A DNA stretch of 64,000 nt, taken from the NCBI GenBank assembly GCA_013540605.1, contig JABVCK010000003.1:1-64000 (forward strand), in the 5' to 3' direction. The position numbers and the translations under genes are program-made. This DNA comes from Bacillota bacterium. Its GTDB lineage: Bacteria > Bacillota > Clostridia > Ch29. The notes beneath the pieces were generated by a model. The model made no database searches. It was not told the origin of the DNA and worked only from the letters and a program-made list of their open reading frames with translations. The stretch's first letter is position 1; each line of letters starts with the position of its first letter. Positions 5,395 to 21,971 of the stretch are shown in pieces.

Positions 5395-6693
5395 ATGACC
5401 CAATTGGAAGCCGCGCAAAAAGGGATTATTACAAAGGAAATGGTCAAGGCCGCCCGGTTTGATAGAGTGGAACCTGAAGAACTGAGGGAAAAAATCGCCG
5501 CCGGAGAGGCTGTTCTGCCCTGTAATATCAATCATAAAAACATTTTCCCTCTGGCTGTGGGCAAAGGCCTGTCCACTAAAGTAAACGCCAATATCGGCAC
5601 TTCTGATGCTTACCCGGAAATAGAAAAGGAACTGGAGAAACTGTCTGTGGCCGTTAAAGCAGGCGCCCACTCGGTGATGGATTTAAGCACAGGGGGAGAT
5701 ATTGACCTGGTTAGAAAGAAGATTATTGAATCCAGTACTGTGATGGTCGGTACGGTTCCTTTTTATCAAGTCCTGGTGGAGACCCAAAAAAGGGGCCGGG
5801 GTATGGTGGAAATGACGGAGGATGAGATCTTTGCAGGAATAGAGAAACATTGCAGGGATGGCGCCGATTTTATCACAGTGCACTGCGGCGTAACCCTGGA
5901 AGTTATCCAGGAATTAAAAGCCAGGGGAAGAGTAATGGATATTGTCTCCCGGGGCGGGTCTTTTATTATGGCCTGGATGCTGCATCATCAAAAACAGAAT
6001 CCCTTGTTTAAGCAATTTGACCTGCTGCTGGAGATAGCACGAAAATACGACGTAACCTTAAGCCTGGGGGATGGGTTGAGGCCCGGCTGCCTGGCGGATG
6101 CTACCGATTCCCCGCAAATTAAGGAATTAATCATCCTGGGAGGGTTGGTAAAACGGGCCAGGGAAGCCGGGGTGCAGGCGATGGTCGAAGGGCCCGGCCA
6201 TATTCCCTTAGACCAGATAGATGCAAACATGAAACTGGAAAAGACACTGTGCCATAATGCCCCATTTTATGTTTTAGGGCCGCTGGTGACAGATGTTGCT
6301 CCGGGCTATGATCATATAACCTCTGCCATCGGCGGGGCTATAGCAGCTTCTTCCGGCGCTGATTTCCTGTGTTATGTAACGCCGGCTGAACATCTGGGGC
6401 TGCCAACGGTGGAGGATGTAAAAGAGGGCGTGATTGCGGCCAGGATAGCTGCTCATGCTGCTGATTTAGTCAAGGGTATCAAAGGAGCCAGGGAATGGGA
6501 TCTGGAAATGGCTAAAGCACGGAAAAAACTTGATTGGAAAAAACAGATTGAATTAGCCATGGACCCGGAAAAGGCTTTAAAGATGCGGAAAGACAAAAAC
6601 GAAGATAGCCAGCAATGCTGTACCATGTGCGGTGGATTTTGCGCCTATAAATTGGTAAGCGAGTACCTGGGAACTGAATTCACACAATGCTGA
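5395..6693 (+). CDS. thiC: Phosphomethylpyrimidine synthase ThiC
   Basis: ThiC is a radical-SAM enzyme that rearranges aminoimidazole ribotide into HMP-P. From ATG 5395 (AGGTG upstream) the product has 432 residues, the usual short bacterial/archaeal form, and opens MTQLEAAQKGIITKEM. An in-frame ATG at 5365 is possible but adds residues not typical of the family. Motifs include VLPCNINHKN, TVHCGVTLE, GDGLRPGC and VEGPGHIPLDQ. The C-terminal cluster motif reads CCTMCGGFC: relative to the classic CX2CX4C it is one residue shorter (CX2CX3C), a form I believe is shared by some clostridial enzymes. It is the last gene of the operon. Confidence 0.95.
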   Translation: MTQLEAAQKGIITKEMVKAARFDRVEPEELREKIAAGEAVLPCNINHKNIFPLAVGKGLSTKVNANIGTSDAYPEIEKELEKLSVAVKAGAHSVMDLSTGGDIDLVRKKIIESSTVMVGTVPFYQVLVETQKRGRGMVEMTEDEIFAGIEKHCRDGADFITVHCGVTLEVIQELKARGRVMDIVSRGGSFIMAWMLHHQKQNPLFKQFDLLLEIARKYDVTLSLGDGLRPGCLADATDSPQIKELIILGGLVKRAREAGVQAMVEGPGHIPLDQIDANMKLEKTLCHNAPFYVLGPLVTDVAPGYDHITSAIGGAIAASSGADFLCYVTPAEHLGLPTVEDVKEGVIAARIAAHAADLVKGIKGAREWDLEMAKARKKLDWKKQIELAMDPEKALKMRKDKNEDSQQCCTMCGGFCAYKLVSEYLGTEFTQC

Positions 6694-6783
6694 ATAAAAA
6701 TCAGTGGATGTCTGTTTTGCTGCAAAACATAGTGATGGTGCTGTTCCTGACAAAGTGTTAGTATGATTATTTATACACTCTTG

Positions 6784-6846
6784 CGGAGTTGTTGACACCG
6801 GGTGTCAACAACTCCGTCCCCTTGACACCGGACACCGTCCCTTGAC
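6784..6846. repeat. Perfect palindrome with adjoining TTGACAC repeats
   Basis: CGGAGTTGTTGACACC (6784-6799) and GGTGTCAACAACTCCG (6801-6816) are exact reverse complements around a single G. The next 30 bases repeat CCCTTGACAC twice. The element lies between the convergent thiC and dctM genes. There is no T-run on either side, so it is a poor standard terminator. It looks like a dispersed palindromic (REP-type) element. The rest of 6694-6982 shows no gene. Confidence 0.75.
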
Positions 6847-6982
6847 ACGAGGATACCTTTACTTTTTAATGCAATAATAGTCAATATTTGTTCCAGAACT
6901 GATATCCTTTTGCACAACTTCGAAGTTTGTCTTCCTGAGTATTTCATCCATTATCCAATCAAAGGTTGAGAACTATAATAAC

Positions 6983-8242
6983 TCATATTATCACCGGCAG
7001 GAAAAGGGGTACATACAATATGAGCAGCAGCACTACGATTAACCCGATCATAAAGGGGATAATTGCCTTTGTTATTCGTTCAATCGGAAGGCCGGTGATG
7101 GTACTCGCCACATACAGGTTTATAGCCACCGGAGGCGTTATCATGCCAATAGCCAAGCCGACCACTATTACTATTCCGAAATGGATCAGGTTTACCCCCA
7201 GCCGCTCTATCAGCGGCAGGAAAACCGGCGTCAGTATTATTAGCGCGGATGCGGTCTCCATGAATACACCGGCAATCAGAACAATAAACGCTATCAATAG
7301 GAGTATGACGTACTGATTGCTCGACAGCGCCAAAATGCCGCCGGCAATCAGTGTGGGAATGTTCCAGTTTGCCAATATCCAGCTGAAAATATTGGACGTG
7401 GCAATTATGAACATTATTACAGCCATAGTCATAGCTGACCTGCATATTATTTCAAATACGTCCCTGAGCTTCATATCCCTGTATATAAACAGCGATAAGA
7501 TCAACGAATAGTTCACCGCGATTACCGCTGCCTCCGAAGGGGTAAAATACCCTGAAAAGATACCGCCCAGGATTATAACCGGTGTTAAGATGCCCCATAT
7601 TGCATCTTTAAAGGTTCTCCACACATTCTTTAACGAAAACTCCGCCCCTTTGGGATAGTTCCTCTTATACGCCTGCCTTATACCTATACCTATTAGAACC
7701 AGCCCCATAACCACACCGGGAATAAATCCGTTGAGAAACAACCGTGCCACCGATTGGTCGGCTATTACTGCATACAGGATCATGGGAACCGACGGAGGGA
7801 TTACCACGCCGATTGTGCCGCTGGCAGCGATAAGGGCTGCCGACGAAGCCTCGTCATATCCCTTTTTCTTCAACTCGGGTACCAATGTGGTACCGACCGC
7901 TGCCGTTGTTGCAGCTCCTGATCCTGATATCGCAGCAAAAAACATGGCTGCCAGCACAGCAACTATCGATAGGCCTCCCTTCAGGAAGCCAAAAACAGCA
8001 TCGGCAAACTCGACAAGCTTCTCAGATATCTTGCCCTTTGCCATCAGGTCTCCTGCCAGAATGAAGAACGGGACCGCTATCAGGGGAAAGCTGTCTGTCC
8101 CGGCAAACATTCTCTGGGCGATTATCACCAGTGGTATCCCTTCCCTGAAGAGCACAATAAGGGAGGATATGCCGATGACTATGGCAACCGGTATTCCGAT
8201 CAGAAGGAGTATAAAGAATGAGCCAAACAATAATGCCGTCAT
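6983..8242 (-). CDS. dctM: TRAP transporter large permease DctM
   Basis: This 419-residue protein has about a dozen membrane segments and the length of a TRAP large subunit. Family patterns include FPLIAVPFFILAGDLMAKG, FFAAISGSGAATTAAVG, ASGTIGVVIPPSVPMILY and GMITPPVAINLYVAS. DctM drives sodium-coupled uptake of an organic acid captured by DctP. Its ATG overlaps the stop of the dctQ remnant (ATGA). It is the last gene of ilvD-dctP-dctQ-dctM. Because dctQ is damaged, the transporter may be inactive or may use another small subunit. Confidence 0.93.
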   Translation of the reverse strand: MTALLFGSFFILLLIGIPVAIVIGISSLIVLFREGIPLVIIAQRMFAGTDSFPLIAVPFFILAGDLMAKGKISEKLVEFADAVFGFLKGGLSIVAVLAAMFFAAISGSGAATTAAVGTTLVPELKKKGYDEASSAALIAASGTIGVVIPPSVPMILYAVIADQSVARLFLNGFIPGVVMGLVLIGIGIRQAYKRNYPKGAEFSLKNVWRTFKDAIWGILTPVIILGGIFSGYFTPSEAAVIAVNYSLILSLFIYRDMKLRDVFEIICRSAMTMAVIMFIIATSNIFSWILANWNIPTLIAGGILALSSNQYVILLLIAFIVLIAGVFMETASALIILTPVFLPLIERLGVNLIHFGIVIVVGLAIGMITPPVAINLYVASTITGLPIERITKAIIPFMIGLIVVLLLILYVPLFLPVII

Positions 8243-8506
8243 CCCTGATCAACCTCCCCTTTGGCAAATAGCTGCTCCAATATCCCGGCAAACGCGTAAA
8301 TGCCCATTATTATAAAACTAAAAAGTACTCCATACAAGCAAATATCGGGATAGTTCTTCCGTCCATGTCAGGGCGCTGAAGAATACCCTGAAAACTATTT
8401 GCATTGTTATGCTTAATATCATCCCTGCTATAGCAATAAATACAATCTTGCTGATGGCCTGGTCGATTGCATCGCTTATTCTCCTGAATAAAAGCATCAA
8501 CGCCAT
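8239..8506 (-). pseudogene. TRAP small permease DctQ with internal deletion and frameshift
   Basis: The frame from ATG 8506 gives LLFRRISDAIDQ, one membrane segment (IVFIAIAGMILSITMQIVF) and the DctQ signature LTWTEELSRYLLVW, then stops at 8318. In the next frame (8239-8314) a DctQ-like C-terminus appears: FIIMGIYAFAGILEQLF followed by AKGEVDQG, ending in the ATGA overlap with dctM. DctQ proteins are usually about 160 residues with four membrane segments; the two visible parts make roughly 90. A middle segment of about 60 residues (two or more membrane segments) is therefore missing, together with a frame change. An AAAGGA site lies just upstream of 8506. Confidence 0.8.
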
Positions 8507-8542
8507 TTGACTCATTCCTTTGTAAATTTTATTTGCAGTACC

Positions 8543-8569
8543 AGCCCTGGCATCGTACAATGCCAGGGC
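8543..8569 (-). other. Intercistronic hairpin between dctP and dctQ
   Basis: GCCCTGGCAT and ATGCCAGGGC form a 10-bp perfect stem with a 7-base loop just after the dctP stop. There is no U-run. Such stems behind binding-protein genes commonly protect the upstream message and raise binding-protein yield over permease yield; that role here is inferred. Confidence 0.6.
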
Positions 8570-8579
8570 GCGGTCATAT

Positions 8580-9593
8580 CTACTTCAACTGTTCCTGAAT
8601 CCTGGTAAGATAATTGCCAAATTTGTCTCCGTATTTATCGTATACAGACTTAACGGCTTCTTTGAAGGGCGTTGTGTCAATCTCCCTTATTACTTCCATG
8701 CCCTGGTTCTCAATCTCATCAAGCTGCTGAGCTTCATTATCGGCATTCACCTGACGCTCATATTCTGCGGCCTCCTGGGCGCACTCTTTGAATACTGTCT
8801 GGATGCCTTCCGGCAGCTGGTTAAATTTATCCAGGCTCATAACAAATATTGCAGGGGCATATGTATGTCTGGTCATGGAAAGATATTTCTGTGTTTCTGA
8901 AAGCTTGTACGAATAGATTACGTTAACGGGATTTTCCTGGCCGTCTATTGTCTTTTGCTGCAGCGCTGTCAGCGCTTCGGTCCACGCCATGGGAACAGTG
9001 TTTGCCCCCAATGCCTGGAAAGTATCAATGTACACCGGATTTTCCATTACTCTAATCTTTAATCCCTTTACATCATCCGGAGTATTTACCGCCCGCTTTG
9101 AGTTTGTCAGGTTTCTAAACCCTCTCTCAGCATAGGCCAATCCCTTGAGCTGAACGGTCTCCAGCTTGTTGAGGAGTTCCTGCCCGATATCGCCGTCCAG
9201 TACAGAATACGCTTCGGCCGGATTGCTGAACAGGAAGGGCAGCTCAAATACGGCTATTTCCGGCAAGAAGTTTGCCACAGGACCGTTGGTAATCACCCCC
9301 ATGTCCACCGTTCCCATCTGCATGCCTTCGAGCAGTGTCCTTTCATCGCCAAGGGTCGCGTTCGGGTAAATGTCTATCTGCACTTTTCCGCCTGTCTTTT
9401 GTTCAACCAGTTCTTTGAACTTCAAAGCGGCCACATGAAAACCGTCCTTCTCGTTGACAACATGGGCCAGACGCAGCTTAATGGGCTCATCGCTAACCGC
9501 TGCAGGTTCTTCCTCTGCGGCCTTCTGCGCACATCCTCCCACCAACGACACTGCCAGAATCAAACATAAGAGATACATCAAAGATTTTTTCAT
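8580..9593 (-). CDS. dctP: TRAP transporter solute-binding lipoprotein DctP
   Basis: The product is 337 residues, starting at ATG 9593 behind a GGAGGG site. It has a lipoprotein signal (MKKSLMYLLCLILAVSLVGGC, cysteine at the lipobox). The DctP fold follows: IKLRLAHVVNEKDGFHVAALKF, YPNATLGDERTLLEGMQMG, GLKIRVMENPVYIDTFQALG and the hallmark GANTVPMAWTEALTALQQ with DGQENP. It captures a carboxylate outside the membrane for DctM. It is downstream of ilvD (23-base gap), so the ligand may be a branched or hydroxylated organic acid related to dehydratase chemistry; this is inference. Confidence 0.92.
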   Translation of the reverse strand: MKKSLMYLLCLILAVSLVGGCAQKAAEEEPAAVSDEPIKLRLAHVVNEKDGFHVAALKFKELVEQKTGGKVQIDIYPNATLGDERTLLEGMQMGTVDMGVITNGPVANFLPEIAVFELPFLFSNPAEAYSVLDGDIGQELLNKLETVQLKGLAYAERGFRNLTNSKRAVNTPDDVKGLKIRVMENPVYIDTFQALGANTVPMAWTEALTALQQKTIDGQENPVNVIYSYKLSETQKYLSMTRHTYAPAIFVMSLDKFNQLPEGIQTVFKECAQEAAEYERQVNADNEAQQLDEIENQGMEVIREIDTTPFKEAVKSVYDKYGDKFGNYLTRIQEQLK

Positions 9594-9616
9594 ATCACCG
9601 TTTCCTCCCTCTTTTT

Positions 9617-11287
9617 TTATTTTTCCAACACTGCTCCCGTGCTGGCCGAAGTTACAAGTCTGCTGTATCTGGACAGATATGTGCCTTTTTGAGCTTTTAC
9701 CGGCGGTTTCTCCCATGCCGCCAGTCTCCTTTTTATCTCCTCATCCGAAAGCTCCGCTCTAAGTATACGGTTTGGGATATCTATCTCAATAATGTCTCCT
9801 TCCTCTATTATGGCAATAGGCCCTCCTTCAGAGGCCTCGGGAGATACATGTCCTATACACGGACCCCTGGTACCCCCTGAAAAGCGCCCGTCTGTTATCA
9901 AAGCTACTGATTTTTCCAATCCCATGCCTGCTATAGCCGCAGTAGGGCTCAGCATCTCTCTCATGCCCGGGCACCCTTTGGGACCCTCGTACCTGATCAC
10001 TGCAACATCCCCGGGCTTTATTCCTTTATTCATGATAGCGTCAAAGGCCTCTTCCTCCGAGTTGAACACCCTGGCAGGACCTTTATGCCGCATCATTTCA
10101 GGTTCAACGGCTGATTGTTTGATTACAGCTCCGTCCGGCGCCAGGTTCCCTCTCAGTATGGCTATTCCGCCTTCTTTATTATAGGGGTCGGCAATCGGCC
10201 GTATAATTTCCGGATCAAGCACCTCTGCCGTTGATATGTTCTCACCCAGCGTCTTGCATGTAGCGGTCAGCTCATCGGGGTAGATAAGGCCTGCCCTCAG
10301 CAGTTGGTTTAATACTGCGGATATGCCCCCTGCCCAGTGTAAATCTTCCATAGCATGTACACCCGCCGGGCTTATCTTGGTAATATTGGGAGTTTTTTTG
10401 CTGATGGCGTCAAAATCATCCAGGCCAAGGTCAACTTCCGCCTCCGAAGCGACCGCCATCAAGTGCAGTGTGGTATTGGTGGAGCCGCCTATGGCCATGT
10501 CCAACGTAATAGCATTTTTGAAAGCTCCCAATGTCATAATGTCTCTCGGACGGATATCCTTTTTCACCAGTTCCATTATCTGCATACCGGCCCTTTTCGC
10601 CAGCTGTTTTCTAGCTCCAAAGGGAGCGGGAATGGTTCCGTTGCCCGGCAAAGCTATGCCCAGGGCTTCTGCCAGGCAGTTCATGCTGTTAGCCGTAAAT
10701 AAACCTGCACAGCTTCCACATGTCGGACAGGACTGCAGCTCCAACTCCTTCAGTTCTTGGTCGGTAATCTTTCCGTTTGCATGGGCTCCTACCCCCTCGA
10801 AGGCACCGTGTATCAAGTCAACGGCTTTCCCCCTGTGTCTTCCTTTGAGCATCGGGCCGCCGCTGATATAGATAGATGGGATATTTAGTCTGGCCGCAGC
10901 CATAAGCATGCCGGGAACGATCTTGTCACAGTTGCCTACAAGAACAAGTCCGTCAAATTTGTGGGCAACGGCCATTGCCTCAATGGAATCCGCAATCAAC
11001 TCCCTGCTCGCCAGCGGATATTTCATGCCGCTGTGGTTCATCGATATACCGTCGCAGATACCGATGACGGGAAACTCGATGGGTGTTCCACCGGACGCGC
11101 TGACACCCAGTTTGACCGATTGGGCTATTTCATCCAAGTGAAAATGCCCGGGGATTATTTCATTATGCGCGTTTACTACTCCTATCAACGGCTTTTCAAG
11201 GTCCTCCGGAGTATACCCCATGGCATAAAACAGCGCACGGTGAGGGGTGCGGGCTACTCCTCCGGTAACTTCTGTACTGTTCAACAT
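9617..11287 (-). CDS. ilvD: Dihydroxy-acid dehydratase (IlvD family)
   Basis: At 556 residues it is full length. IlvD removes water from 2,3-dihydroxy acids in valine and isoleucine synthesis, using an Fe-S cluster and Mg. Cluster-cysteine contexts [10 protein letters not shown] and [18 protein letters not shown] are present, as are [20 protein letters not shown] and [13 protein letters not shown]. No other branched-chain genes are nearby. Instead it leads a TRAP operon next to a two-component system, so a catabolic role on a sugar acid or other dihydroxy acid is an alternative. The sequence is closer to true IlvD wording than to the longer sugar-acid dehydratases. Confidence 0.88.
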
Positions 11288-11340
11288 ACCTCACTCCTAT
11301 CTACTAATTAAGCCAGGCTTAACAATAAGGTAACAAAAGC

Positions 11341-11386
11341 AGAAATCCGGTACAATCAATAATATTATTGAAAATACCGAATTTCT
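11341..11386 (-). promoter_or_regulatory. Nested dyad in the ilvD leader (operator or hairpin)
   Basis: AGAAATCCGGTA (11341-11352) and TACCGAATTTCT (11375-11386) are inverted repeats with one mismatch. Inside them CAATAATATTATTG (11357-11370) is a perfect 14-bp palindrome. The element falls between the predicted -10 and the ilvD start, so it could be a regulator site or an mRNA stem. Confidence 0.5.
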
Positions 11387-11390
11387 TGTC

Positions 11391-11419
11391 ATAGTATAAT
11401 ACGAATATTTTGTTGTAAA
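11391..11419 (-). promoter_or_regulatory. Probable promoter of ilvD-dctPQM
   Basis: On the minus strand TTTACA (11419-11414) and TACTAT (11396-11391) are 17 bases apart. The -35 touches the stop of the upstream regulator gene. The leader would be about 100 bases and contains the nested dyad. This is pattern-based only. Confidence 0.45.
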
Positions 11420-12487
11420 TTATGAATTATTTGTCCCCATATTCTCCCTTATTCTTTTCCGGAATTCACTTGGCAGACAGCCTGCGTATTTGTTAAACAC
11501 CATACTAAAATAGCTGAAGTCGTCATACCCTACCTTTTCGGAAACCGCCCTCAGGCTTAAATCAAAATTTCCAATGTACTCTTTGGCCTTTTCAATCCTT
11601 TTCGCGTTAAGATATTGTGAAAAGTTCATCCCGGTCTGCTGCTTGAATATTCTGGACAGATAGTGCGGGCTCAAATTTACATGTTCCGCCACATCTTTTA
11701 AGTATATCTTGCTGGCATAATTGTTCTGTATAAAATCCTTCGCCCTGACAACCGCCCTTTCAACGGGTGATAAATAATGGTCCGATACCGTTTCAGACAC
11801 TTCGACTATAAAATCTTTTATAAGCTTTTTAAGAAAATGGGATGTGTCCGCCCTTAGTATTTGTTTTTGCTTGTTCTCTTTCAGCTCACTTAAGAAATCC
11901 TTATCAATCCCTAATGATACAACAATCCGAATGATTATACCCATTAATTCGACCAAGTAGCCTTTGAGTTCAATGATGTCGAATTCCCTATCTTCCGGTA
12001 GTATCTTTCCTAATATCTCCACAGCCTTTCGCCTTCTATTGTATTTAATGCTTTCAAGCAGTTCTGCTTCCAGGTCCGAGTTCCGAATTATAGCACCCTC
12101 ATCAGCTATTACGGGCATATTTCTCCCGGTCAGAGCGTTATTTACAGCTTGAATCAAATCCTTAGGGGATATCGGTTTCAATAGATAGTCATCCGCTCCC
12201 AAACGCAAGGCCTCATGGGCATAAGTAAATTCATCATAGGCGGTTAAAATGATAATCTTTATATCAGGAATACTGCTTTTTATTGTTCTCCCTGCTTCCA
12301 GCCCTTCCATCCCCGGCATCCGTATATCAAGCAGCACTATATCCGGTCTGAATGCAGCCGCTTTTTCTATGGCTTCCTTCCCATTATGCGCCTCTTCGAC
12401 TACAGCATCAATATTCTCTTCTTTAAAAACATACCGTATATATTCTCTTATAGTATCTTCGTCATCTACCACCAGCAGTTTTATCAA
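11420..12487 (-). CDS. YesN-type response regulator (REC + AraC HTH)
   Basis: About 355 residues. An N-terminal receiver domain shows KLLVVDDEDT, the phospho-acceptor in DIVLLDIRMPG, LTAYDEF and the lysine in YLLKPI. A middle linker (about residues 130-250) has no clear family. The C-terminus has two AraC-type HTHs (YLKDVAEHVNLSPHYLSRIFKQ and LSLRAVSEKVGYDDFSYF). TTG 12487 is preferred because GAGGTG sits six bases ahead and the protein then opens MIKLLVVDDE; ATG 12493 abuts the same site. It overlaps the kinase gene upstream and probably acts on the ilvD operon that follows. Confidence 0.85.
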   Translation of the reverse strand: MIKLLVVDDEDTIREYIRYVFKEENIDAVVEEAHNGKEAIEKAAAFRPDIVLLDIRMPGMEGLEAGRTIKSSIPDIKIIILTAYDEFTYAHEALRLGADDYLLKPISPKDLIQAVNNALTGRNMPVIADEGAIIRNSDLEAELLESIKYNRRRKAVEILGKILPEDREFDIIELKGYLVELMGIIIRIVVSLGIDKDFLSELKENKQKQILRADTSHFLKKLIKDFIVEVSETVSDHYLSPVERAVVRAKDFIQNNYASKIYLKDVAEHVNLSPHYLSRIFKQQTGMNFSQYLNAKRIEKAKEYIGNFDLSLRAVSEKVGYDDFSYFSMVFNKYAGCLPSEFRKRIRENMGTNNS

Positions 12488-14102
12488 TGTCATCACCTCG
12501 CCCATTGGTAAATGGAAGGGTAATTGTAACCGTTGTACCTTCGCCAGAACTGCTGGAAATATCCAGCGTATATGCGTCACCAAAATAATAATCCAGCCGC
12601 TCCTTAAGGTTGCTCAACCCAAGGCCAATACCCCTGGTAGAAACCCTGTTATTGCCTTTTAGAATATCCTTTAATCTTTCCGGTCGTATACCGACACCAT
12701 TATCGGTAACCTGCAGTATAATACGATTATCCTGCAAGCTACCTGCGATGCTCAAAACTCCCTGCTTTTCCAATGGGTGCAGTCCATGGATGATTGCATT
12801 CTCAACCGGTATCTGCAACGTCATAAACGGGATCTTTGTTTCTATTATTCGCTCATCCACTTCAACCTCGGTATTCACCAGATTACGAAACCTTTTTTGC
12901 TGAATAAATATATAGTCCTGTATGTATTCCAGCTCTTCTTTCAAAAAAACCAGTTCCTGTGACTTTCTAAGACTTTTCCTCAACAGGCTTGAAAGGGCAA
13001 AGGTTGTTTCTGCTGCTTCTTTAGCGCCCTTCATATACGCAAGTTCTCCTATTACACTCAGGGTATTAAATAAAAAATGGGGACTCATCTGTGCTTGTAT
13101 GGCTTTCATTTTTGCTTCCGAGAGGGCTTTCTCCAACTGGTTCCGGGTTTGAATCTCTTTCAGGACCTGCAGTGTTTTTGCGTGCAACTCGTTATGGGCA
13201 AGATTGTCAATGCCGGTCTGGACAATATAAGTATTTATTGTCTTCAGTGATTCGATTATTGCATATAGACGTCCTTTGGTTATTTTTCTTATATCCAGAT
13301 AGGAATTCTTCAATCCGTCAATTCCACAAATTTTTTCTTCATTTCTTATGGCTGCAAGCGCTTCTTCAGTAGGCTCGTTTAAAAAAACAGGGCCGCATAG
13401 AATTGTGCCTATATATTGCTGTCCGAAGTATATCGGTGCGGCGATACATACAGCATCATAGCAGCAGGAGGTTACCGTAGCTTCTTTTATGCTATCCGTA
13501 ACATACCTATTCTTAAACTTGCAGCTATAACCGTGTTCACATCTCTTTCGACAGAACTTCAGCATATTGCTTATCTGTGTTATGTTGTTTCCATCTCTAT
13601 CCTGGATAACTATTGCCAGACTTGCAGCATTGGAATATTTGTCCTGGATTTCCTGCAGGGCGGGAATATCAATTATATCGTTTAAATTCTCAACGGTATA
13701 ATTCTCGGTATACTCTTTGGTAAATTCGGTGGAAGGCAGTATATTATTGCCGTTAGAGCTTGTCGGATTGTATACGATAATCATTTCCAGAACATCGTCA
13801 CCGGTATTCCTGAGCTCATGCTTTGCATAGGGAGAAATATGATATACCATTCCGGGTACCAGCGGATAGAAATGGCCATCAACCCATTGCTCACCTGTTC
13901 CGGAGATTATATAAAGTATTTGTTCGTCCCCTGTATGCAGGTGTTGGTCCTGCCTCTTGTGGGGTAAAAAAGTAACATGGCCCACCAACAGCCTTCCCTT
14001 TTCCAGGTCTTCAGGCTCTTCCAGCCATTTTACCGTCCCCCATTCAAAATACTGTTTTACAGGGCGTAAAGCATTGAAACTTCCCATGTTCCCAACATCC
14101 AT
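12462..14102 (-). CDS. Soluble histidine kinase: cupin + PocR + LytS-type kinase
   Basis: The 546-residue protein has no membrane segment. Residues about 40-115 form a cupin with the metal-ligand pattern QHLHTGDEQ and the later VPGMVYHISPYAKHEL. Residues about 140-305 match the PocR ligand-sensing domain, rich in cysteines (FCRKRCEHGYSCKF, TSCCYDAVCIAAPI). A coiled linker leads to the His_kinase domain with QAQMSPHFLFNTL holding the phospho-histidine, then the ATPase boxes VENAIIHGLHP, DNGVGI and GIGLGLSNLKERL. It would therefore sense a cytoplasmic metabolite. It starts at ATG 14102 behind AAGGAGGAG and is coupled to the YesN regulator. Confidence 0.85.
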   Translation of the reverse strand: MDVGNMGSFNALRPVKQYFEWGTVKWLEEPEDLEKGRLLVGHVTFLPHKRQDQHLHTGDEQILYIISGTGEQWVDGHFYPLVPGMVYHISPYAKHELRNTGDDVLEMIIVYNPTSSNGNNILPSTEFTKEYTENYTVENLNDIIDIPALQEIQDKYSNAASLAIVIQDRDGNNITQISNMLKFCRKRCEHGYSCKFKNRYVTDSIKEATVTSCCYDAVCIAAPIYFGQQYIGTILCGPVFLNEPTEEALAAIRNEEKICGIDGLKNSYLDIRKITKGRLYAIIESLKTINTYIVQTGIDNLAHNELHAKTLQVLKEIQTRNQLEKALSEAKMKAIQAQMSPHFLFNTLSVIGELAYMKGAKEAAETTFALSSLLRKSLRKSQELVFLKEELEYIQDYIFIQQKRFRNLVNTEVEVDERIIETKIPFMTLQIPVENAIIHGLHPLEKQGVLSIAGSLQDNRIILQVTDNGVGIRPERLKDILKGNNRVSTRGIGLGLSNLKERLDYYFGDAYTLDISSSSGEGTTVTITLPFTNGRGDDIDKTAGGR

Positions 14103-14161
14103 TCAATCTCCTCCTTAGAATCGCTAAGGCAAGCAAGTACAGCGGTTTAAAGAATATCCTT

Positions 14162-15076
14162 TTAAACTGGCTGATGTTTAGTTGGCTTGGTTGTGGAATC
14201 GCTTTCTTTTATCCTGTTTACCATGATTACTGAAGCTATAACCAGGACCACGCCTGATAATTGCAAATAGCTCAGAACTTCACCGAGCAGCAGCATCCCA
14301 AACATAATCGTTACCACAGGATCAACCGTACTGATGATAGACGCCTTAGCTGATCCTATTTCTTTAATGCCTAGAAATAACGCTATTGTCGGAAATGCTG
14401 TGAAGAATACGGCGGTAGACAGGGTTATCCCCCAGCCTCTCAGAGATACGTCGGCCCACAGCTGTCTGGTCAGTATACCGGTAACTATGAAAGAAACGGC
14501 CCTGAAGGTAATATTATATGTAACCGCAACAACAGAATCCATTTCTTTTATGTATTTGCTCTCAAGTATCATAAAATTAAAACAATTAACCACCGCCGCC
14601 AGAAAGGCAAGAAGGATACCAAACCAGCTCATGTGTGTAACAGGAGCCCAAACCGCTATAACGATACCGGTAAACGCTATTATCAGGGCCATAATCTGTT
14701 TCCCCACAATTTTCTGCTTCAGTATCACGATAGCAAAAACATTGGTTAGAACAGGATGAAAGGAATATAAAATGGTGGCAAGGGAAACGGGAATAAAAAT
14801 TATTGCATAATAAAACAGCATCCCGACCGCATAGCACATTATTCCACCCTGCAGGAACAAAACCGCCAGCTGGGCTTTGCTTATCCTGAAAGCGTCCCTC
14901 CCTTTTGTAGCCAGTCCGTATATCCATAAAATGATAGCGGCTAAACCAAAACGGATTGCCTGCATAAACTGCGGGTTAGCCCCTTCAGCGTATGCAATTT
15001 TGGTGGCAACCGCCATTATTCCGTAACAGACAGAGGCGGCCAATACTAGCAGACTTCCCTTTGTCAGGCTTCTCAT
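14162..15076 (-). CDS. EamA/DMT-family permease
   Basis: This 304-residue protein has ten predicted membrane segments and two EamA repeats. Signs are VLAASVCYGIMAVATKIAY near the start, FHPVLTNVFAIVILKQ at the end of the first repeat, and IISTVDPVVTIMFGMLLLGE in the second. DMT permeases export or exchange amino acids and other metabolites; no substrate can be read here. ATG 15076 is chosen over 15091 because GGGGAGGAC lies at the right distance, while the earlier ATG overlaps that site. The kinase gene follows after 59 bases, so they may be co-transcribed. Confidence 0.85.
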   Translation of the reverse strand: MRSLTKGSLLVLAASVCYGIMAVATKIAYAEGANPQFMQAIRFGLAAIILWIYGLATKGRDAFRISKAQLAVLFLQGGIMCYAVGMLFYYAIIFIPVSLATILYSFHPVLTNVFAIVILKQKIVGKQIMALIIAFTGIVIAVWAPVTHMSWFGILLAFLAAVVNCFNFMILESKYIKEMDSVVAVTYNITFRAVSFIVTGILTRQLWADVSLRGWGITLSTAVFFTAFPTIALFLGIKEIGSAKASIISTVDPVVTIMFGMLLLGEVLSYLQLSGVVLVIASVIMVNRIKESDSTTKPTKHQPV

Positions 15077-15198
15077 TCTGGTCCTCCCCATTGAAGAATC
15101 ACGATTAATACTGTAAGCTGCCTACAAGTATAATTTATATCTCCGCCGGTTTATTTTCAACATCAAGTTATGTATATTAACAGGATTGAAAATTGCAA

Positions 15199-15297
15199 AT
15201 GGAACAGGAACGCGAAGAAAGACTGCAAAAAATCGCCGATGAGAAGGGTATTACCGTTGAAGAATTAAAGCAGCAGATGGTTCAGAGAAAACCCTAA
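15199..15297 (+). CDS. Possible 32-residue small protein
   Basis: ATG 15199 opens MEQEREERLQKIADEKGITV and the product ends ELKQQMVQRKP, charged and helical. The 'ERL..IA.EKGITVEELK' wording resembles segments of DUF2680-type exported proteins, but no signal peptide is present. A hairpin follows at 15335. The ribosome site (AGGATT, 13 bases away) is poor. It could be a real small protein or a leftover of a longer gene. Confidence 0.35.
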   Translation: MEQEREERLQKIADEKGITVEELKQQMVQRKP

Positions 15298-15334
15298 CAA
15301 TAGATTTATGGATTGAAGGGGTAGGGGTTGAATG

Positions 15335-15365
15335 GGAGGCAGATATTTAAATATTATCTGCCTCC
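15335..15365. other. 11-bp hairpin downstream of the small reading frame
   Basis: GGAGGCAGATA (15335-15345) pairs perfectly with TATCTGCCTCC (15355-15365). It lies between the small plus-strand frame and the convergent amidohydrolase. There is no convincing T-run on either side. It may still end transcription from one or both directions. Confidence 0.45.
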
Positions 15366-15457
15366 TTACCATTACCGCTTCTTAGAAACCTCTAATTGTC
15401 CTTGGCATCCACATTGCTGTGCTTTTCTTTATTACAATGCTTAATGCCCGGATTCTG

Positions 15458-16999
15458 TCAAGGAATCAGCCTGCTATATTGTATTCTACCGTTGACTATT
15501 GTCATCAAGACTTCGATATCTTTTATAAGCCTTTTATCTGTCTTAAGTGGGTTTTTATTTAGCATTACGATGTCGGCCTTCTTCCCTGCTTCCAAAGATC
15601 CCCTTTTATCTTCTTGGAATACTGCCTTGGCTCCATTTATTGTGAATAGCTTTATGGCTTCTTTTATACTGATTCTTTCCCTTTTATTTGAATGATTAAC
15701 CGCAGCGTGCATCCCTAATAGCGGGTTTATTGGGGTAACGGGGCTGTCGGAACCCCCTGCAACTAAAATGCCTTTTTCAATCATTGTATTCAACGGTAAG
15801 GCTCTGCTTGCTCTTTCCTTACCCAGCCTTTTCTCATACATTGAGTCTTTATCATAAAGATTGAAAACCGGCTGGGTAGAAATCACGAGCCCTAACTGAG
15901 CTGCTCTGTTTATCTGACCATCTGTAGGAATGCTGAAATGCTCTATCCTGTGTCTGTGGTCCCTGCGCTCTTTCCCGCTTATACACTTTTCATAAGCTTT
16001 TAGCATCTGTTCTATCGCCCTGTCGCCAATACAGTGTGTGGATATTTGCATTCCCTCGCCATGAGCCCGAGCAACAAACATGTCCACCTGTTCATCGGTA
16101 TAGTACAGACATCCCCTTAAGTCAGGGGGATCTACATAGGGCTCTTCAAAAGCAGCTGTAAAAGAACCTATGGACCCGTCAATTATTACGCATCCTCCTA
16201 TCCGGTTAAAACCCTCTTCTTTAACCTTATCAACATCCATAGTCTGATGAAATATTTCTATATTGACTGGTAGTTTGTCTTTTTCTTCTTTAATCACAGC
16301 TATATCTTTATCGCTGAATAGGCTTCCTCCTTCAAGGGCATGGATTGTAGTTACTCCGCGGTTCAAGGCCTGTTTTGCCGCGAGATGCAGCGCCGTTCTT
16401 CGTTCATCATCAGTAATGAAATCCGCAAGCTTTACCCTGGCTAACCCGTTAGCCTTGGCTCTGAATGTGCCTTGCGCTTCCCCGTTCTCATCTTTATCAT
16501 AGCCTTCGCTTCTCTCGTCAATGCTCAGGAGTTCCAAAGCCTTTGAGTTAACTGCACATGAATGCGCGTCCACCCTGCTAATGAACACCGGATTGCTTAT
16601 GGATAGACGGTCGAGGTCTTTCCTGGTAGGCAACCTTCCATCGGAAATCTTCCCTTCATCAAAACCTGCAGCGATTACCCACCTGTCGATTTCCATATCC
16701 TTTGCAAATTGCTCTAACCCTTTGAAGAATTCATCCATAGTAGAAAAATCCGAAGCATTCATATTCATTTCATCCAGTCCTGTTTGGGTGAAATGCACAT
16801 GTGAGTCGATAAAACCCGGCAGCAAGGCCATGCCTTTCAAATCTATAGCTATTGTTGAATCTGTAATCATTTTTTTGATTTCTTCATCTTCCCCAAGCTT
16901 CACTATTGTGTCGTCTTTAACTGCAACTGCAGAATAGATGGTGAAGTTCTCATCTACGCTTATCACTTCACCGTTGAACAATACCAGTTCAGCAAGCAT
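15458..16999 (-). CDS. YtcJ-type metal-dependent amidohydrolase
   Basis: The 513-residue protein has a small beta domain at both ends and a TIM barrel between (Amidohydro_3). Metal and active-site motifs are LLPGFIDSHVHF, THCIGDRAI, HRIEHFS and GGSDSPVTPINP; it ends RGSLEAGKKADIVMLN, typical of the superfamily. Such enzymes hydrolyse amide or N-acyl bonds in the cytoplasm; the substrate is unknown. It follows the YfcC transporter after 35 bases, so import of a substrate followed by its hydrolysis is likely. Both genes should be controlled from the sigma-54 promoter at 18571. Confidence 0.85.
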   Translation of the reverse strand: MLAELVLFNGEVISVDENFTIYSAVAVKDDTIVKLGEDEEIKKMITDSTIAIDLKGMALLPGFIDSHVHFTQTGLDEMNMNASDFSTMDEFFKGLEQFAKDMEIDRWVIAAGFDEGKISDGRLPTRKDLDRLSISNPVFISRVDAHSCAVNSKALELLSIDERSEGYDKDENGEAQGTFRAKANGLARVKLADFITDDERRTALHLAAKQALNRGVTTIHALEGGSLFSDKDIAVIKEEKDKLPVNIEIFHQTMDVDKVKEEGFNRIGGCVIIDGSIGSFTAAFEEPYVDPPDLRGCLYYTDEQVDMFVARAHGEGMQISTHCIGDRAIEQMLKAYEKCISGKERRDHRHRIEHFSIPTDGQINRAAQLGLVISTQPVFNLYDKDSMYEKRLGKERASRALPLNTMIEKGILVAGGSDSPVTPINPLLGMHAAVNHSNKRERISIKEAIKLFTINGAKAVFQEDKRGSLEAGKKADIVMLNKNPLKTDKRLIKDIEVLMTIVNGRIQYSRLIP

Positions 17000-17034
17000 T
17001 TATTCGGCCTCCTATTATTGAGTGTATGCGATGT

Positions 17035-18468
17035 CTAGAACGGTCCAAGTTTTATAAAGTGGGCTATGGTAACGAAAACCCCTGCGGATACTATCCATGC
17101 CAGCATAAGTTTCCATACCCACTTCGCCCATCTATCCCACGGAATGCCTCCTGCCATGGCCAAACCTGCCAGCAGAACACCGGAAGTAGGGAATAATGCA
17201 TTGGTGAAGGAATCGCCATACTGGAAGGCTAGCACTGCCACCTGTCTGGTGGTTCCAACAATATCCGCCAGGGGAGCCATTATCGGCATTGTAGTCACTG
17301 CCTGGCCGCTTCCCGAAGGAATAAAGAAATTCATGACAAGCTGGATACAATACATGCCCATAGCAGCCATGATGGTGGGTAACCCCTCTACCAAACCGGC
17401 CAGCGAGTGGATTACCGAATCGATTATATGACCTTTTTCCATAACAACGAGAATACTCCTTGCTAACCCTGTCGTAACCGCTCCGAATATTATTGCCTTT
17501 GCCCCATTAGCGAAATGTTCAGCCATTTCACTGGGAGTAAAACCTCCTACAAAACCCGCGGCAATACCGACAAGAATAAACATTGCTGATATCTGCCTCA
17601 AAAACCACCCCAGGTTAATCGTTCCGTAGATAGTTATAGCAAAACCTGCAATAACGACCGCTATTACTCCCTTATGTCTTGCGGTGAACTTTGGCATTTC
17701 TGATAGATCTATTTCCTCCATCGTTGCCAGCTTGACGTCGTGAACCGGGCTGATCTCCGGATCCTTCTTGAGTTTCTTGGCATACAGCAGAAGAAATACT
17801 ATTGTAATTATTGTAAAGGTTACGTAGGCTACGAATCTAAAGCCGAGACCAGAGAAAAGAGGAAGTTTTGCTATCGCTTGAGCAACCCCTACAGTATATA
17901 TATTGGTAACGCCTCCGGCGAAACCCGCTCCTGTTCCCAGTACAACCATTCCCATTCCCAAGAGGGCATCATAACCCATAGCTTTAGAAAGGGCAACCCC
18001 TAAAGGTATAAATACCAGAACACCTTCGGCCCATCCTAAAAAAGCGCCGATAGTTGAAAAGAGGATTGTTACACCGGCTATTACTATTGATTCCTTACCT
18101 GCTAACTTCTTAACCAGGTATGCTATCCCTGTATTGAATGCTCCTGTTGCATTAACTATTTCAAAGGATGCACAGACAAGGATTATTAGAAAGATAATAT
18201 CAACCCCATTGGCCATACCTTCAGGTATTGCGAGGGCAAGAGAAAATAACCCGACTGGAGTTTTTTCAATCTCTTGAAAAGTAGTAGGATCAATTACCAT
18301 CCTTCCTGTTGCTTCATCTTTAACCCGTACATACTCCCCGGCAGGCATTACATACGATGCAATGGCTGCAATAATCATAATCATGATGAGTAAAACATAG
18401 ACATGCGGTACTCTTAGCCTGAACTTTTTTTTAGGCCCGGTATCGGTTTTAACACTAGAACTAGACAT
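17035..18468 (-). CDS. YfcC-family (DcuC-like) membrane transporter
   Basis: At 477 residues with about a dozen membrane segments, this matches the YfcC branch of the DcuC/ion-transporter superfamily. Supporting patterns are PAGEYVRVKDEATGR after the first segment, FSTIGAFLGWAEGVLVFIP, TGAGFAGGVTNIYTVGVAQ and NFFIPSGSGQAVTTMPIMAP. Family members are often linked to peptides, amino acids or dicarboxylates. ATG 18468 is used because AAAGGGGGT lies nine bases ahead. A sigma-54 promoter with dyad sites lies upstream and a sigma-54 activator gene is next door, so expression is probably inducible. Confidence 0.85.
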   Translation of the reverse strand: MSSSSVKTDTGPKKKFRLRVPHVYVLLIMIMIIAAIASYVMPAGEYVRVKDEATGRMVIDPTTFQEIEKTPVGLFSLALAIPEGMANGVDIIFLIILVCASFEIVNATGAFNTGIAYLVKKLAGKESIVIAGVTILFSTIGAFLGWAEGVLVFIPLGVALSKAMGYDALLGMGMVVLGTGAGFAGGVTNIYTVGVAQAIAKLPLFSGLGFRFVAYVTFTIITIVFLLLYAKKLKKDPEISPVHDVKLATMEEIDLSEMPKFTARHKGVIAVVIAGFAITIYGTINLGWFLRQISAMFILVGIAAGFVGGFTPSEMAEHFANGAKAIIFGAVTTGLARSILVVMEKGHIIDSVIHSLAGLVEGLPTIMAAMGMYCIQLVMNFFIPSGSGQAVTTMPIMAPLADIVGTTRQVAVLAFQYGDSFTNALFPTSGVLLAGLAMAGGIPWDRWAKWVWKLMLAWIVSAGVFVTIAHFIKLGPF

Positions 18469-18493
18469 TACAATAAGACCCCCTTTATGGTAT

Positions 18494-18545
18494 GGGGACA
18501 CACCTCCTCATAGCAGCGAAATTCTAGAGTAAGAGGAATGTCCCC
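18494..18545. repeat. Diverged GGGGACA...TGTCCCC repeat (copy d)
   Basis: Its ends GGGGACACACC and GGAATGTCCCC match those of the three well-conserved copies at 25658, 26811 and 52617, but the centre differs. It lies in the 5' leader of the YfcC gene. Confidence 0.6.
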
Positions 18546-18570
18546 GATTTTATATTTTCATGCTATATAA

Positions 18571-18587
18571 AGCAAAAAGAATGCCAA
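18571..18587 (-). promoter_or_regulatory. Sigma-54 (-24/-12) promoter
   Basis: On the minus strand TTGGCATTCTTTTTGCT fits the consensus TGGCAY-N5-TTGCW, with GG and GC correctly spaced. It lies about 100 bases before the YfcC start, upstream dyads are present, and a sigma-54 activator gene lies beside it. Confidence 0.8.
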
Positions 18588-18645
18588 CGTCAAAAACCAC
18601 CTGTCCCTTGAAAATTCAAGCAGGCGGCGGGTTGTGAAATCATTG

Positions 18646-18750
18646 ATTTATCACTTTGATAAATATTGACTGCAAGTCGAAATTAAAATCTTTCAAAAAT
18701 ACTATTTGATAATCTATTATCATTTTAATAATAAATTATCAAAATGATAA
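18646..18750 (-). promoter_or_regulatory. Three dyad sites, likely enhancer for the sigma-54 activator
   Basis: ATTTATCACTTTGATAAAT (18646-18664) has perfect 8-bp arms. TGATAATCTATTATCA (18707-18722) has perfect 7-bp arms. TTATCAAAATGATAA (18736-18750) has 6-bp arms. The shared half-site TTATCA/TGATAA and the position 60-180 bases upstream of the -24/-12 element fit binding by the activator encoded at 18754-20502. Confidence 0.7.
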
Positions 18751-18753
18751 ATG

Positions 18754-20502
18754 CTACTTGTTTATCCATCTGTATAGGGTAGCTATCCCTATACCCAGAG
18801 CTTTGGCTGCCTCTTTTTTACCCTCTACAGTATGCCCGTAATAGTCCAACGCTTTATTGATCTCTCTTATCGTTAGCTCATCTATAGATGAAATTAGAGC
18901 GGATTCTGAATAAACATTCTTGAACTTTCTGGGCAGATCCTCCGCTGTAATCACACCATCCGTATCAACGTTTATACCGTACTCTATGGCATTTTCCAAT
19001 TCTCTTACATTGCCCGGCCACTGATACTCTTCAAGCAAAGCAATTCCATCGTCTGAAATGCTTTTTATGGTTTTGTTCAAAGTTCTCGAATACTTCTCAA
19101 TAAAAAACCGGGTAAGCACTTTCACATCGTCTTTGCCTCTCTCTCTTAAAGACGGTATTTTTAAAGGGATAACATTGAGACGGTAGTAAAGGTCATCCCG
19201 GAATTCCTTGTCGCCTACCATTTTTTCTAAGTCCTTGTTCGTTGCAGCTATTATCCTGACGTCTATTTTTATTTCTTCCACTCCACCCAAACGGGTTACC
19301 GCTTTCTCTTCTATTACCCTGAGAAGCTTTACCTGCAAATGCAAGGGCATGTCTCCTATTTCATCCAGAAACAATGTTCCGCCGCTGGCCAACTCGAATT
19401 TCCCAGGTTTCCCTTGGGATTTCGCGCCGGAAAACGCCCCTCCCTCATAGCCGAACAGCTCACTTTCAATCAGGTTTTCAGGAATCGCACCGCAGTTTAT
19501 CGTAATAAACGGATTGTTCTTTCTAGTGCTTGCATTATGTATTGCCCTGGCAAAAAGCTCTTTACCGGTACCGCTTTCGCCTTGAATTAATATCGTAGAA
19601 TTGCTGTTGGAAACCGACAGCGCTTTTTTCTTAACCTGGTGCAACTCTGCGCTTTCACCGACAATCTCATCAAATGTTATGTCTTCTTTATTTACCATTA
19701 AGCTATTTAACATATAGCTAACACTTTTTATGTCCTTCAAAAACAATAGAAAGCCATTAAGATTCTCATCAATTCTAATATGTCTTCCTGAGTGCACTAC
19801 CCTGAAATTCTTCTCAGACACGCTTACGCTGGCCTCAATGGTGTCGAACTCCTTGCCCTGATAAACCATATTCCTGATAAATTCATTTCTATATACTTCT
19901 TTGAAGGGTTTGCCTACAACGTCATCTGAGTGTATATTGAACATTTCACAGAAATAATCGTTTACAACTCTAATTCTATTAGAGTTATCGATTAGCACGA
20001 TGCCCTGATTTGAATTGTTTATGATTGAATTAAACATCCTGGTCGTAAAATCCAGCTCTTTAGTCAAAGTGTAGCTCTTAATCTTGCTTTGAATCAGATC
20101 AACCATCTTTCTGCTGAAATCTATATAGTTTTTTTTATACTCAATCAAATATCTTTTTTGTTCGGGATTTAACGCCGCAATACTTAACCCTCCGATAACT
20201 TCACCGTCAACAAACAACGGGGTATTGATACCTGCAAATTCTGAACACGCTTCCCTTTCCTTACAATCAGAACAAATCTCATGTTCCATGGGGTTTTCAA
20301 TGACAATTATATCCTTTCTATTAAATAAAGCATTATATATATAAGGTATAGCTCTTTCCCCAATCAGATGATGATATTTTTTTGTACCTGCCAATACTAT
20401 TAAATTAACATCTACTATTATCAGTTCTGCATTGATGAGAGCTGAAACAGTATCTATAAGTTCCTGCAAAAAGCCCTGGATCTCTTTTAACTGAAAAATC
20501 AT
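18754..20502 (-). CDS. Sigma-54-dependent transcriptional activator (sensor + PAS + AAA + HTH)
   Basis: Residues about 1-170 form a sensory region with a cysteine cluster (EICSDCKEREACSEFAG) and a GAF-like strand pattern. A PAS domain spans about 180-280 (GIVLIDNSNRIRVVND). The AAA domain shows Walker A GESGTGKE, GGTLFLDEIGDM and the arginine finger region FRDDLYYRLNVIPL. The sigma-54 contact loop reads GAFSGA instead of GAFTGA. A Fis-type HTH ends the protein (AAKALGIGIATLYRWINK). ATG 20502 lies six bases after AAAGGGGG. It probably binds the dyads at 18646-18750 and drives the YfcC/amidohydrolase genes. Confidence 0.9.
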   Translation of the reverse strand: MIFQLKEIQGFLQELIDTVSALINAELIIVDVNLIVLAGTKKYHHLIGERAIPYIYNALFNRKDIIVIENPMEHEICSDCKEREACSEFAGINTPLFVDGEVIGGLSIAALNPEQKRYLIEYKKNYIDFSRKMVDLIQSKIKSYTLTKELDFTTRMFNSIINNSNQGIVLIDNSNRIRVVNDYFCEMFNIHSDDVVGKPFKEVYRNEFIRNMVYQGKEFDTIEASVSVSEKNFRVVHSGRHIRIDENLNGFLLFLKDIKSVSYMLNSLMVNKEDITFDEIVGESAELHQVKKKALSVSNSNSTILIQGESGTGKELFARAIHNASTRKNNPFITINCGAIPENLIESELFGYEGGAFSGAKSQGKPGKFELASGGTLFLDEIGDMPLHLQVKLLRVIEEKAVTRLGGVEEIKIDVRIIAATNKDLEKMVGDKEFRDDLYYRLNVIPLKIPSLRERGKDDVKVLTRFFIEKYSRTLNKTIKSISDDGIALLEEYQWPGNVRELENAIEYGINVDTDGVITAEDLPRKFKNVYSESALISSIDELTIREINKALDYYGHTVEGKKEAAKALGIGIATLYRWINK

Positions 20503-20587
20503 TGCAAAACCCCCTTTATGCGTGGCGCACACCCCTCAGCAATCCCTCGGATAGGTATTAATTGCCGGCAAAATATGCGGAAGGCTA

Positions 20588-21209: not shown

Positions 21210-21971
21210 ATATAGGAACCTATGGGATTTAAAAATCAACCAGTATTTAATTATCAGGGATGCTGAAGGGAATGTAATAAAAAAGCGCAGGTGGAACGGC
21301 AAGATCTTAGACACGGTCAGGTGGAAACCGATAAGCAATAAATACCAAAAGAGCATTAAACCCCTTGATTACAAGCAGGAGTGCTTCTTCGATATGCTCC
21401 AGTCCAATGAGATTTTGCTGAAGGTAAGCAATTCCCCTGCGGGAGTTGGCAAAAGCTTTCTGTTTCTCAACTACGCCCTCCAGCAAGTAGAACACGGGAA
21501 GTTCGGAAAACTCATCTTCATCAAGCCGGACGTAAGCATAGACGGTAAAAAATACCCGGCTATTCCTGGAGGGATAAACGAAAATCCGCGCCTCTGCTGG
21601 GTGTTTTAAAGGACAGCACCGGTGAAAACCACGTCGAGGATATAATGATTAGGAACGAGAACCTTGAAATCCTGCCCCTGGAGTTTGTAAGGGGACGTTC
21701 GCTGAGCAACTGCATTGTATTCATAAATGAAGCGCAAAACATCACGCCACCTCAGATGAAAATGATACTCGAGAGAATCAGCCATAACAGTATCTGCCTG
21801 GTGGATGGCTCAATCCAGCAGATAGATAATCCGCAATGTAAGGAGTACTGCGGATTGGAACCGGTCATAAACCACTATAGTGAAATGGAGTTTTATGGTC
21901 AGGCAGACATGGACAGCCAGTGCAACCGCAGAAGCATGATATCAAAGATAGCAAGTGAAATTAACCTTTAA
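21210..21971 (+). pseudogene. PhoH-like ATPase remnant
   Basis: The first part contains IKPLDYKQECFFDML, then a P-loop-like SPAGVGKSFLFLNYA and KLIFIKPDVSIDGKKY, and stops at 21607. The second part, in another frame, contains LPLEFVRGRSLSNCIVFINEAQNITPPQMKMIL and SIQQIDNPQCKEY, ending at 21971. This order matches PhoH/YlaK-type ATPases, but Walker A is altered (SPAGVGKS), Walker B reads INEAQN where DEAQN is normal, and the frame is broken near 21600. It may come from a phage-type PhoH. It is probably non-functional. Confidence 0.65.

Follow-up and report, generated by a model that had tools for sequence, protein, structure and literature searches.

What does a soluble histidine kinase detect when its input region consists of a cupin and a PocR domain, and its gene stands beside those for a dihydroxy-acid dehydratase and a TRAP transporter? 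This question is raised by a locus of a Bacillota bacterium (Clostridia; Ch29) on contig JABVCK010000003.1 of assembly GCA_013540605.1. The first 64,000 nucleotides of this contig were analyzed and are called the window here. The genes ilvD, dctP, a damaged dctQ and dctM lie downstream of the kinase and regulator genes on the same strand (Table 1).

Table 1. Coordinates of the features of the locus in the window
Feature	Position	Strand	Remarks
Soluble sensor kinase, 546 aa	12462–14102	−	Cupin_2, PocR, His_kinase and HATPase_c
YesN-type response regulator, 357 aa	11420–12493	−	REC (D56) and two AraC-type helix-turn-helices
66-nt dyad (hairpin) between regulator and ilvD	11328–11393	−	Retained in 5 of 8 loci, with compensatory changes
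ilvD, dihydroxy-acid dehydratase	9617–11287	−	TIGR00110, above cut-off
dctP, TRAP solute-binding protein	8580–9593	−	Intact
dctQ, damaged	8243–8560	−	80-aa remnant (8318–8560) and out-of-frame tail
dctM, TRAP large permease	6983–8242	−	Intact

Domain organization of the kinase and the regulator

Four Pfam domains were found in the kinase: Cupin_2 (residues 42–111, E = 5.5e-14), PocR (residues 142–297, E = 1.2e-26), His_kinase (residues 330–407, E = 5.6e-24), with H342 within a PHFLFN motif, and HATPase_c (residues 433–532, E = 6.2e-14). All Pfam domain calls for the kinase and the regulator exceed the gathering scores; therefore, the cupin, PocR and LytS-type kinase domains of the original prediction are confirmed, and the coordinates given for the locus were right. 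The kinase had also been predicted to be free of the membrane. This agrees with its hydropathy profile, in which the top 19-residue value is only 1.32 and no transmembrane segment appears, and the Pfam scan gave no membrane-spanning input domain. The nearest solved match is the kinase domain of GanS (6swk/6swj). A model of the full-length kinase has a pTM of 0.38 and is usable by domain only; a fold search returned kinase cores and one cupin.

The regulator is composed of Response_reg (residues 7–118, E = 2e-32) and HTH_18 (residues 269–347, E = 1.1e-21) domains. With a receiver domain, a C-terminal AraC-type helix-turn-helix and a gene adjoining that of the kinase, it has the YesN layout, as had been proposed. 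Its start is the ATG at 12493, within the 3′ end of the kinase gene, and the mechanical call of a TTG at 12583 was wrong.

The cupin metal motif, HxH(x3)E with H..N, is present in the kinase as H54, H56, E60 and H95. Across the 17 cupin kinases compared, H54, H56, H95 and N99 do not vary. The glutamate of the HxH(x3-4)E motif is also kept, with a one-residue shift in part of the distant group described below. The cupin is predicted from these residues to hold a metal. H342, N346 and N435 are invariant across all 31 kinases compared; the phospho-acceptor histidine and the N box are thus present.

Cysteines 184, 194, 213 and 236 are invariant among the cupin kinases. Combined with the intact cupin metal site, they could indicate a redox or oxygen sensor that shields the oxygen-labile iron-sulfur dehydratase by means of the PocR cysteines or a cupin iron, as dihydroxy-acid dehydratases are iron-sulfur enzymes. 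However, every one of the 31 PocR kinases, the cupin-less ones included, has cysteines 184, 194 and 213, and many of the cupin-less kinases adjoin diol dehydratases. Moreover, the neighboring genes serve uptake and carbon metabolism, and no oxidative stress genes were found among them. Because the three cysteines are PocR-wide, redox sensing was dropped as the leading idea, and we consider it very improbable. The original prediction had named an intracellular acid or a redox/oxygen state as the signal by which uptake and dehydration would be controlled; of these, the acid and the control of its uptake and dehydration are retained by inference, and the redox state is not.

The C-H and G-Q motif of the PocR domain is found in 14 of 14 cupin-less kinases and is replaced in 17 of 17 cupin kinases; the window kinase has C214 and P238 where the cupin-less PocR kinases carry histidine and glutamine. 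This alteration of the pocket motif suggests that the cupin kinases may bind a different ligand.

Relation to known systems

Soluble PocR-LytS kinases paired with AraC-type regulators were already known. Such a pair is cited for the 1,3-propanediol operon of C. butyricum in PMC4207490, and soluble PocR kinases with AraC-type regulators are noted by the same source in PDU1D loci. In A. woodii, the regulator of a related kinase/regulator pair (Awo_c25930/Awo_c25920) binds ahead of both pduA and the kinase gene; 1,2-propanediol and 2,3-butanediol induce the pduA promoter (PMC7593272). The window system shares with these propanediol/glycerol-operon pairs (C. butyricum, A. woodii with a putative PocR, and our loci L071–L080) a membrane-free kinase with PocR and His_kinase/HATPase_c domains, a REC-AraC partner and an adjoining dehydratase of vicinal diols. 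It differs from them in the cupin placed in front, the changed C-H/G-Q motif of PocR, and the presence of the iron-sulfur IlvD and TRAP genes instead of a B12 diol dehydratase.

The kinase core and the regulator layout are also shared with the LytS/YesM-type kinases (PF06580) and their YesN regulators. However, the input region here is a cupin and a PocR domain without a membrane span; the protein is a PF06580 kinase but neither LytS nor YesM. Salmonella PocR, a 1,2-propanediol-responsive AraC regulator (NF047788), has the sensory PocR domain in common with it, whereas in the window this domain resides in a kinase and not in a DNA-binding protein, and scores 35.7 against an equivalog cut-off of 500. 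The claim that no member with this layout had been characterized must therefore be narrowed: only the addition of the cupin and the hydroxy-acid neighborhood are new to us. A literature search, whose coverage was partial and which is weak evidence of absence, returned no link between PocR and dihydroxy-acid dehydratase and no description of cupin kinases.

IlvD and the TRAP genes in the window

IlvD scores 793.6 bits against the TIGR00110 equivalog cut-off of 618.15 bits. Its nearest PDB entries are true dihydroxy-acid dehydratases and not sugar-acid dehydratases.

The original prediction placed ilvD and a TRAP transporter just downstream of the regulator. While dctP and dctM are intact, dctQ looks broken, which the prediction had missed, and the transporter is incomplete in the assembly; a full set of intact DctP, DctQ and DctM was not found in the window. 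The 80-residue remnant gives only a partial DctQ match (profile positions 1–35 of 132), its C-terminal tail lies in another frame, and approximately 230 bp are apparently missing internally compared with the 164-residue DctQ of the related locus L021. Intact dctQ genes are present in the related loci L021–L025, and six further full-length DctQ genes occur elsewhere in the genome of the window. Either a true deletion or a fault in the assembly could account for the loss. If the deletion is real, this transporter has probably lost its uptake function here, and what is left is the kinase, the regulator and ilvD.

The nearest solved structures of DctP, by both sequence and fold, are 4nq8, 4p9k/4pak, 4pdh and 4pdd, at only moderate similarity. 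We take these to be pantoate and erythronate complexes. A structural model of DctP (mean pLDDT 61) added nothing beyond the sequence matches. R160, R181 and N221, together with E84 and W204, are conserved in six of six relatives. The first three correspond to the residues named for carboxylate binding in PMC11668362, and DctP thus shares these residues, as well as its top matches, with the pantoate/erythronate group of TRAP solute-binding proteins. The remaining closed TRAP homologs in the set of that study hold pantoate or erythronate, with the warning that such ligands were co-purified (PMC11668362).

Conservation of the neighborhood in close relatives

A scan of a genome collection gave seven full-length relatives of the kinase from several families, with 44–68% identity. 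A neighbor survey had been set beforehand as the test of the predicted association, and the ilvD/TRAP neighborhood of the cupin kinase proved to be strongly conserved. The order kinase-regulator-ilvD is kept in the window and in seven of the seven close relatives, and dctPQM then follows in five of the seven. In Natronincola (L027) and Clostridiaceae M8S5 (L026), genes for a LIV-type (branched-chain-amino-acid-type) ABC transporter and a sodium-dependent transporter, respectively, take the place of TRAP, and in Anaerovirgula (L024) the TRAP genes are followed by LIV-type ABC genes. Because the outer flanks vary between genomes, the conserved unit is kinase-regulator-ilvD-transporter, referred to here as the module.

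The flanks themselves contain genes of interest. Upstream in the window, an amidohydrolase, a YfcC/DcuC-type transporter and a PrdR-like sigma-54 regulator stand in a row (15458–20532, minus strand), possibly another operon for acid or amino-acid use. A 108-residue open reading frame (21645–21971, plus strand), read by eye, resembles part of a PhoH-type ATPase and is possibly a gene remnant. In L025 (24–5288), phosphate butyryltransferase (Ptb), butyrate kinase, VorB and two likely further subunits are encoded directly upstream of the kinase; by their assigned functions, these genes are a ketoisovalerate-to-isobutyrate route coupled to the module.

One supported clade (100/100) unites seven module ilvD genes, and the eighth, of an Anaerovorax MAG (G391), groups with a paralog. 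The genome of this MAG contains five genes of the ilvD/Edd family, several of them near other catabolic genes (L067 and L068).

The module ilvD is the sole ilvD in three of the eight genomes (G001, G393 and G395), a point missed by the original prediction; therefore, it must also serve biosynthesis there. This argues against a purely catabolic reading and introduces a serious rival, namely that the two-component system monitors the branched-chain pathway (through an intermediate, a keto acid or an end product) and adjusts a housekeeping ilvD and the uptake of branched-chain amino acids or keto acids. Consistent with such a role, ilvC was found in all eight genomes, G000 and G396 have no other ilvD that scores above the cut-off, ilvD is absent from the ilvN-ilvC-(leu)-ilvB operons of G000, G001, G393 and G396, and LIV-type ABC genes occur at the two loci mentioned above. 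However, in L025 the module is linked to catabolism of ketoisovalerate, and G394 carries a separate ilvD-ilvC. In addition, some of the distant cupin kinases are accompanied by panB, panE or folD, and panC was undetected in two genomes of that group in which panB is present (G634 and G562, each only 90–92% complete), which is unlike biosynthesis. On balance, we regard the anabolic role as rather unlikely.

Distant cupin kinases and the cupin-less branch

When 399 genomes of the phylum were searched with a profile, nine more cupin-PocR-LytS kinases were found, with approximately 31% identity, and the same four Pfam domains were present in all three that were scanned. ilvD, panB and/or TRAP genes lie near all nine: panB was found at seven loci, ilvD at six, TRAP dctP/dctM at five, and panE and folD at three each. 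At L123, the contig stops right after the regulator, and L126 has no adjacent regulator. Genes for 4-hydroxy-2-oxovalerate aldolase and acetaldehyde dehydrogenase are present at four of the nine, and distant loci have them next to ilvD.

These aldolase loci would suit another possibility, in which erythronate or another aldonic acid is sensed and ilvD encodes a sugar-acid dehydratase. The relatives of DctP presumably include erythronate binders, which we also count in its favor. Pantoate/D-erythronate is moreover listed as a ligand class of TRAP proteins (PMC5812351). However, the assignment of the window IlvD by TIGR00110 and by its best matches, the close loci without the aldolase, and the three genomes with no ilvD besides that of the module make an aldonic-acid system improbable.

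The 14 cupin-less PocR-LytS loci present a different neighborhood. None of them has ilvD, panB or TRAP genes, and the large subunit of a B12-dependent propanediol/glycerol dehydratase is found at seven of the 14, compared with none of the 17 cupin kinases. A tree built from the PocR-kinase portion common to both sets has one branch between the cupin kinases (17) and the cupin-less kinases (14), supported at 100/99 and in 100% of bootstraps, which is consistent with a single gain or loss of the cupin. In both branches, the PocR-LytS pairs adjoin a dehydratase of vicinal diols, a natural match for a diol sensor.

Elsewhere in the genome of the window (L161; contig C8, 2226–10615), genes for formate-THF ligase (Fhs), FolD, PanB, PanE and TRAP dctPQM are clustered, together with an IclR-type regulator read by eye. 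Resembling clusters (FolD, PanB, PanE and TRAP) are found in two relatives (L163 and L165), with Fhs probably in L165. The three clusters read like a pathway for the breakdown of pantoate to ketoisovalerate and formate, and favor the catabolic reading of the module.

The dyad between the regulator and ilvD

The sequence between the regulator and ilvD contains a dyad that, at five loci, folds far better than its shuffled versions (z −3.2 to −9.3). Compensatory changes occur at eight of 24 pairs in an alignment of five sequences only, a number reached by none of 500 shuffles. Among the candidates listed at E ≤ 0.1 in a covariance search of the genomes, the dyad appears once per genome, at the regulator-ilvD junction, apart from the match on the opposite strand of the same site and two weak matches. 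It is missing or unrecognizable in L023, L025, L026 and most of the distant loci tested. The dyad is probably the regulatory region of ilvD and may act either as a DNA operator or as an RNA element. Two other identities were considered and rejected: no Rfam match was found in 6000–16000 for a known riboswitch in the ilvD leader, and a scan gave no intrinsic terminator at 11328–11393, where a long A+T-rich stem lacks a clear T tail. The hexamers of a promoter with an operator, read by eye, were unconvincing.

No strong second dyad is present among the genome matches listed (E ≤ 0.1), so no wider regulon is visible. This might be taken to mean that the two-component genes merely adjoin ilvD and regulate something else. 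We give this view very little credence, since the gene order is identical in the window and in all seven close relatives despite the changing outer flanks, and six of the nine distant cupin kinases are also near ilvD.

Proposed ligand and mechanism

We assign a probability of about one half to the reading that the two-component system reports a small hydroxy acid inside the cell and induces ilvD and uptake. The kinase probably detects such an acid because it is consistently beside genes for its uptake and dehydration. A short hydroxy acid is suggested by IlvD, which dehydrates 2,3-dihydroxy acids, by the proximity of DctP to structures of the pantoate/erythronate group, and by analogy with the soluble PocR kinases that serve diol operons with AraC-type regulators. 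The ligand class is likely, and the choice of one acid within it is a guess. Dihydroxyisovalerate sensing would fit a catabolic as well as an anabolic role, because IlvD acts on this acid in both. Several observations stand against the hydroxy-acid reading: L026 and L027 have no TRAP genes, dctQ appears damaged in the window, three of the eight close loci have no recognizable dyad, and the aldolase and aldehyde dehydrogenase genes of several distant loci point to other substrates.

We propose that the signal is a short 2,3-dihydroxy or branched hydroxy acid, which would bind at the metal centre of the cupin, in the PocR pocket or at both. The most likely ligand would be 2,3-dihydroxyisovalerate, the substrate of the neighboring IlvD; pantoate or erythronate-like acids may replace it in the distant relatives. 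Binding would alter the dimeric LytS-type kinase core and lead to autophosphorylation at H342, from which the phosphate would pass to D56 of the regulator. The phosphorylated regulator would then act at the dyad and raise the expression of ilvD and dctPQM. The acid would be imported and dehydrated to 2-ketoisovalerate, which may enter branched-chain amino acids and CoA or be oxidized to isobutyrate. We infer the identity of the ligand, the direction of regulation and the binding of the regulator at the dyad.

The addition of the cupin may have turned a PocR diol sensor into a hydroxy-acid sensor, with neutral diols detected by the cupin-less branch and diol-acids by the cupin branch. We propose this tentatively and hold it to be possible rather than probable. 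If it is true, the diol-acids would be dihydroxyisovalerate, erythronate or pantoate, beside an iron-sulfur dehydratase or PanB/PanE.

The split between the neighborhoods, with hydroxy-acid genes at 17 of 17 cupin kinases and 0 of 14 cupin-less ones, leads to a short list of ligands. It also suggests that anaerobes use dihydroxyisovalerate and pantoate as substrates, which appears to be unreported. If the proposed sensing is true, the module would be the first signaling system for such acids in anaerobic Firmicutes, tied to the catabolism of dihydroxyisovalerate and pantoate, and in the genomes without a second ilvD it would place a housekeeping gene under a dedicated two-component system.
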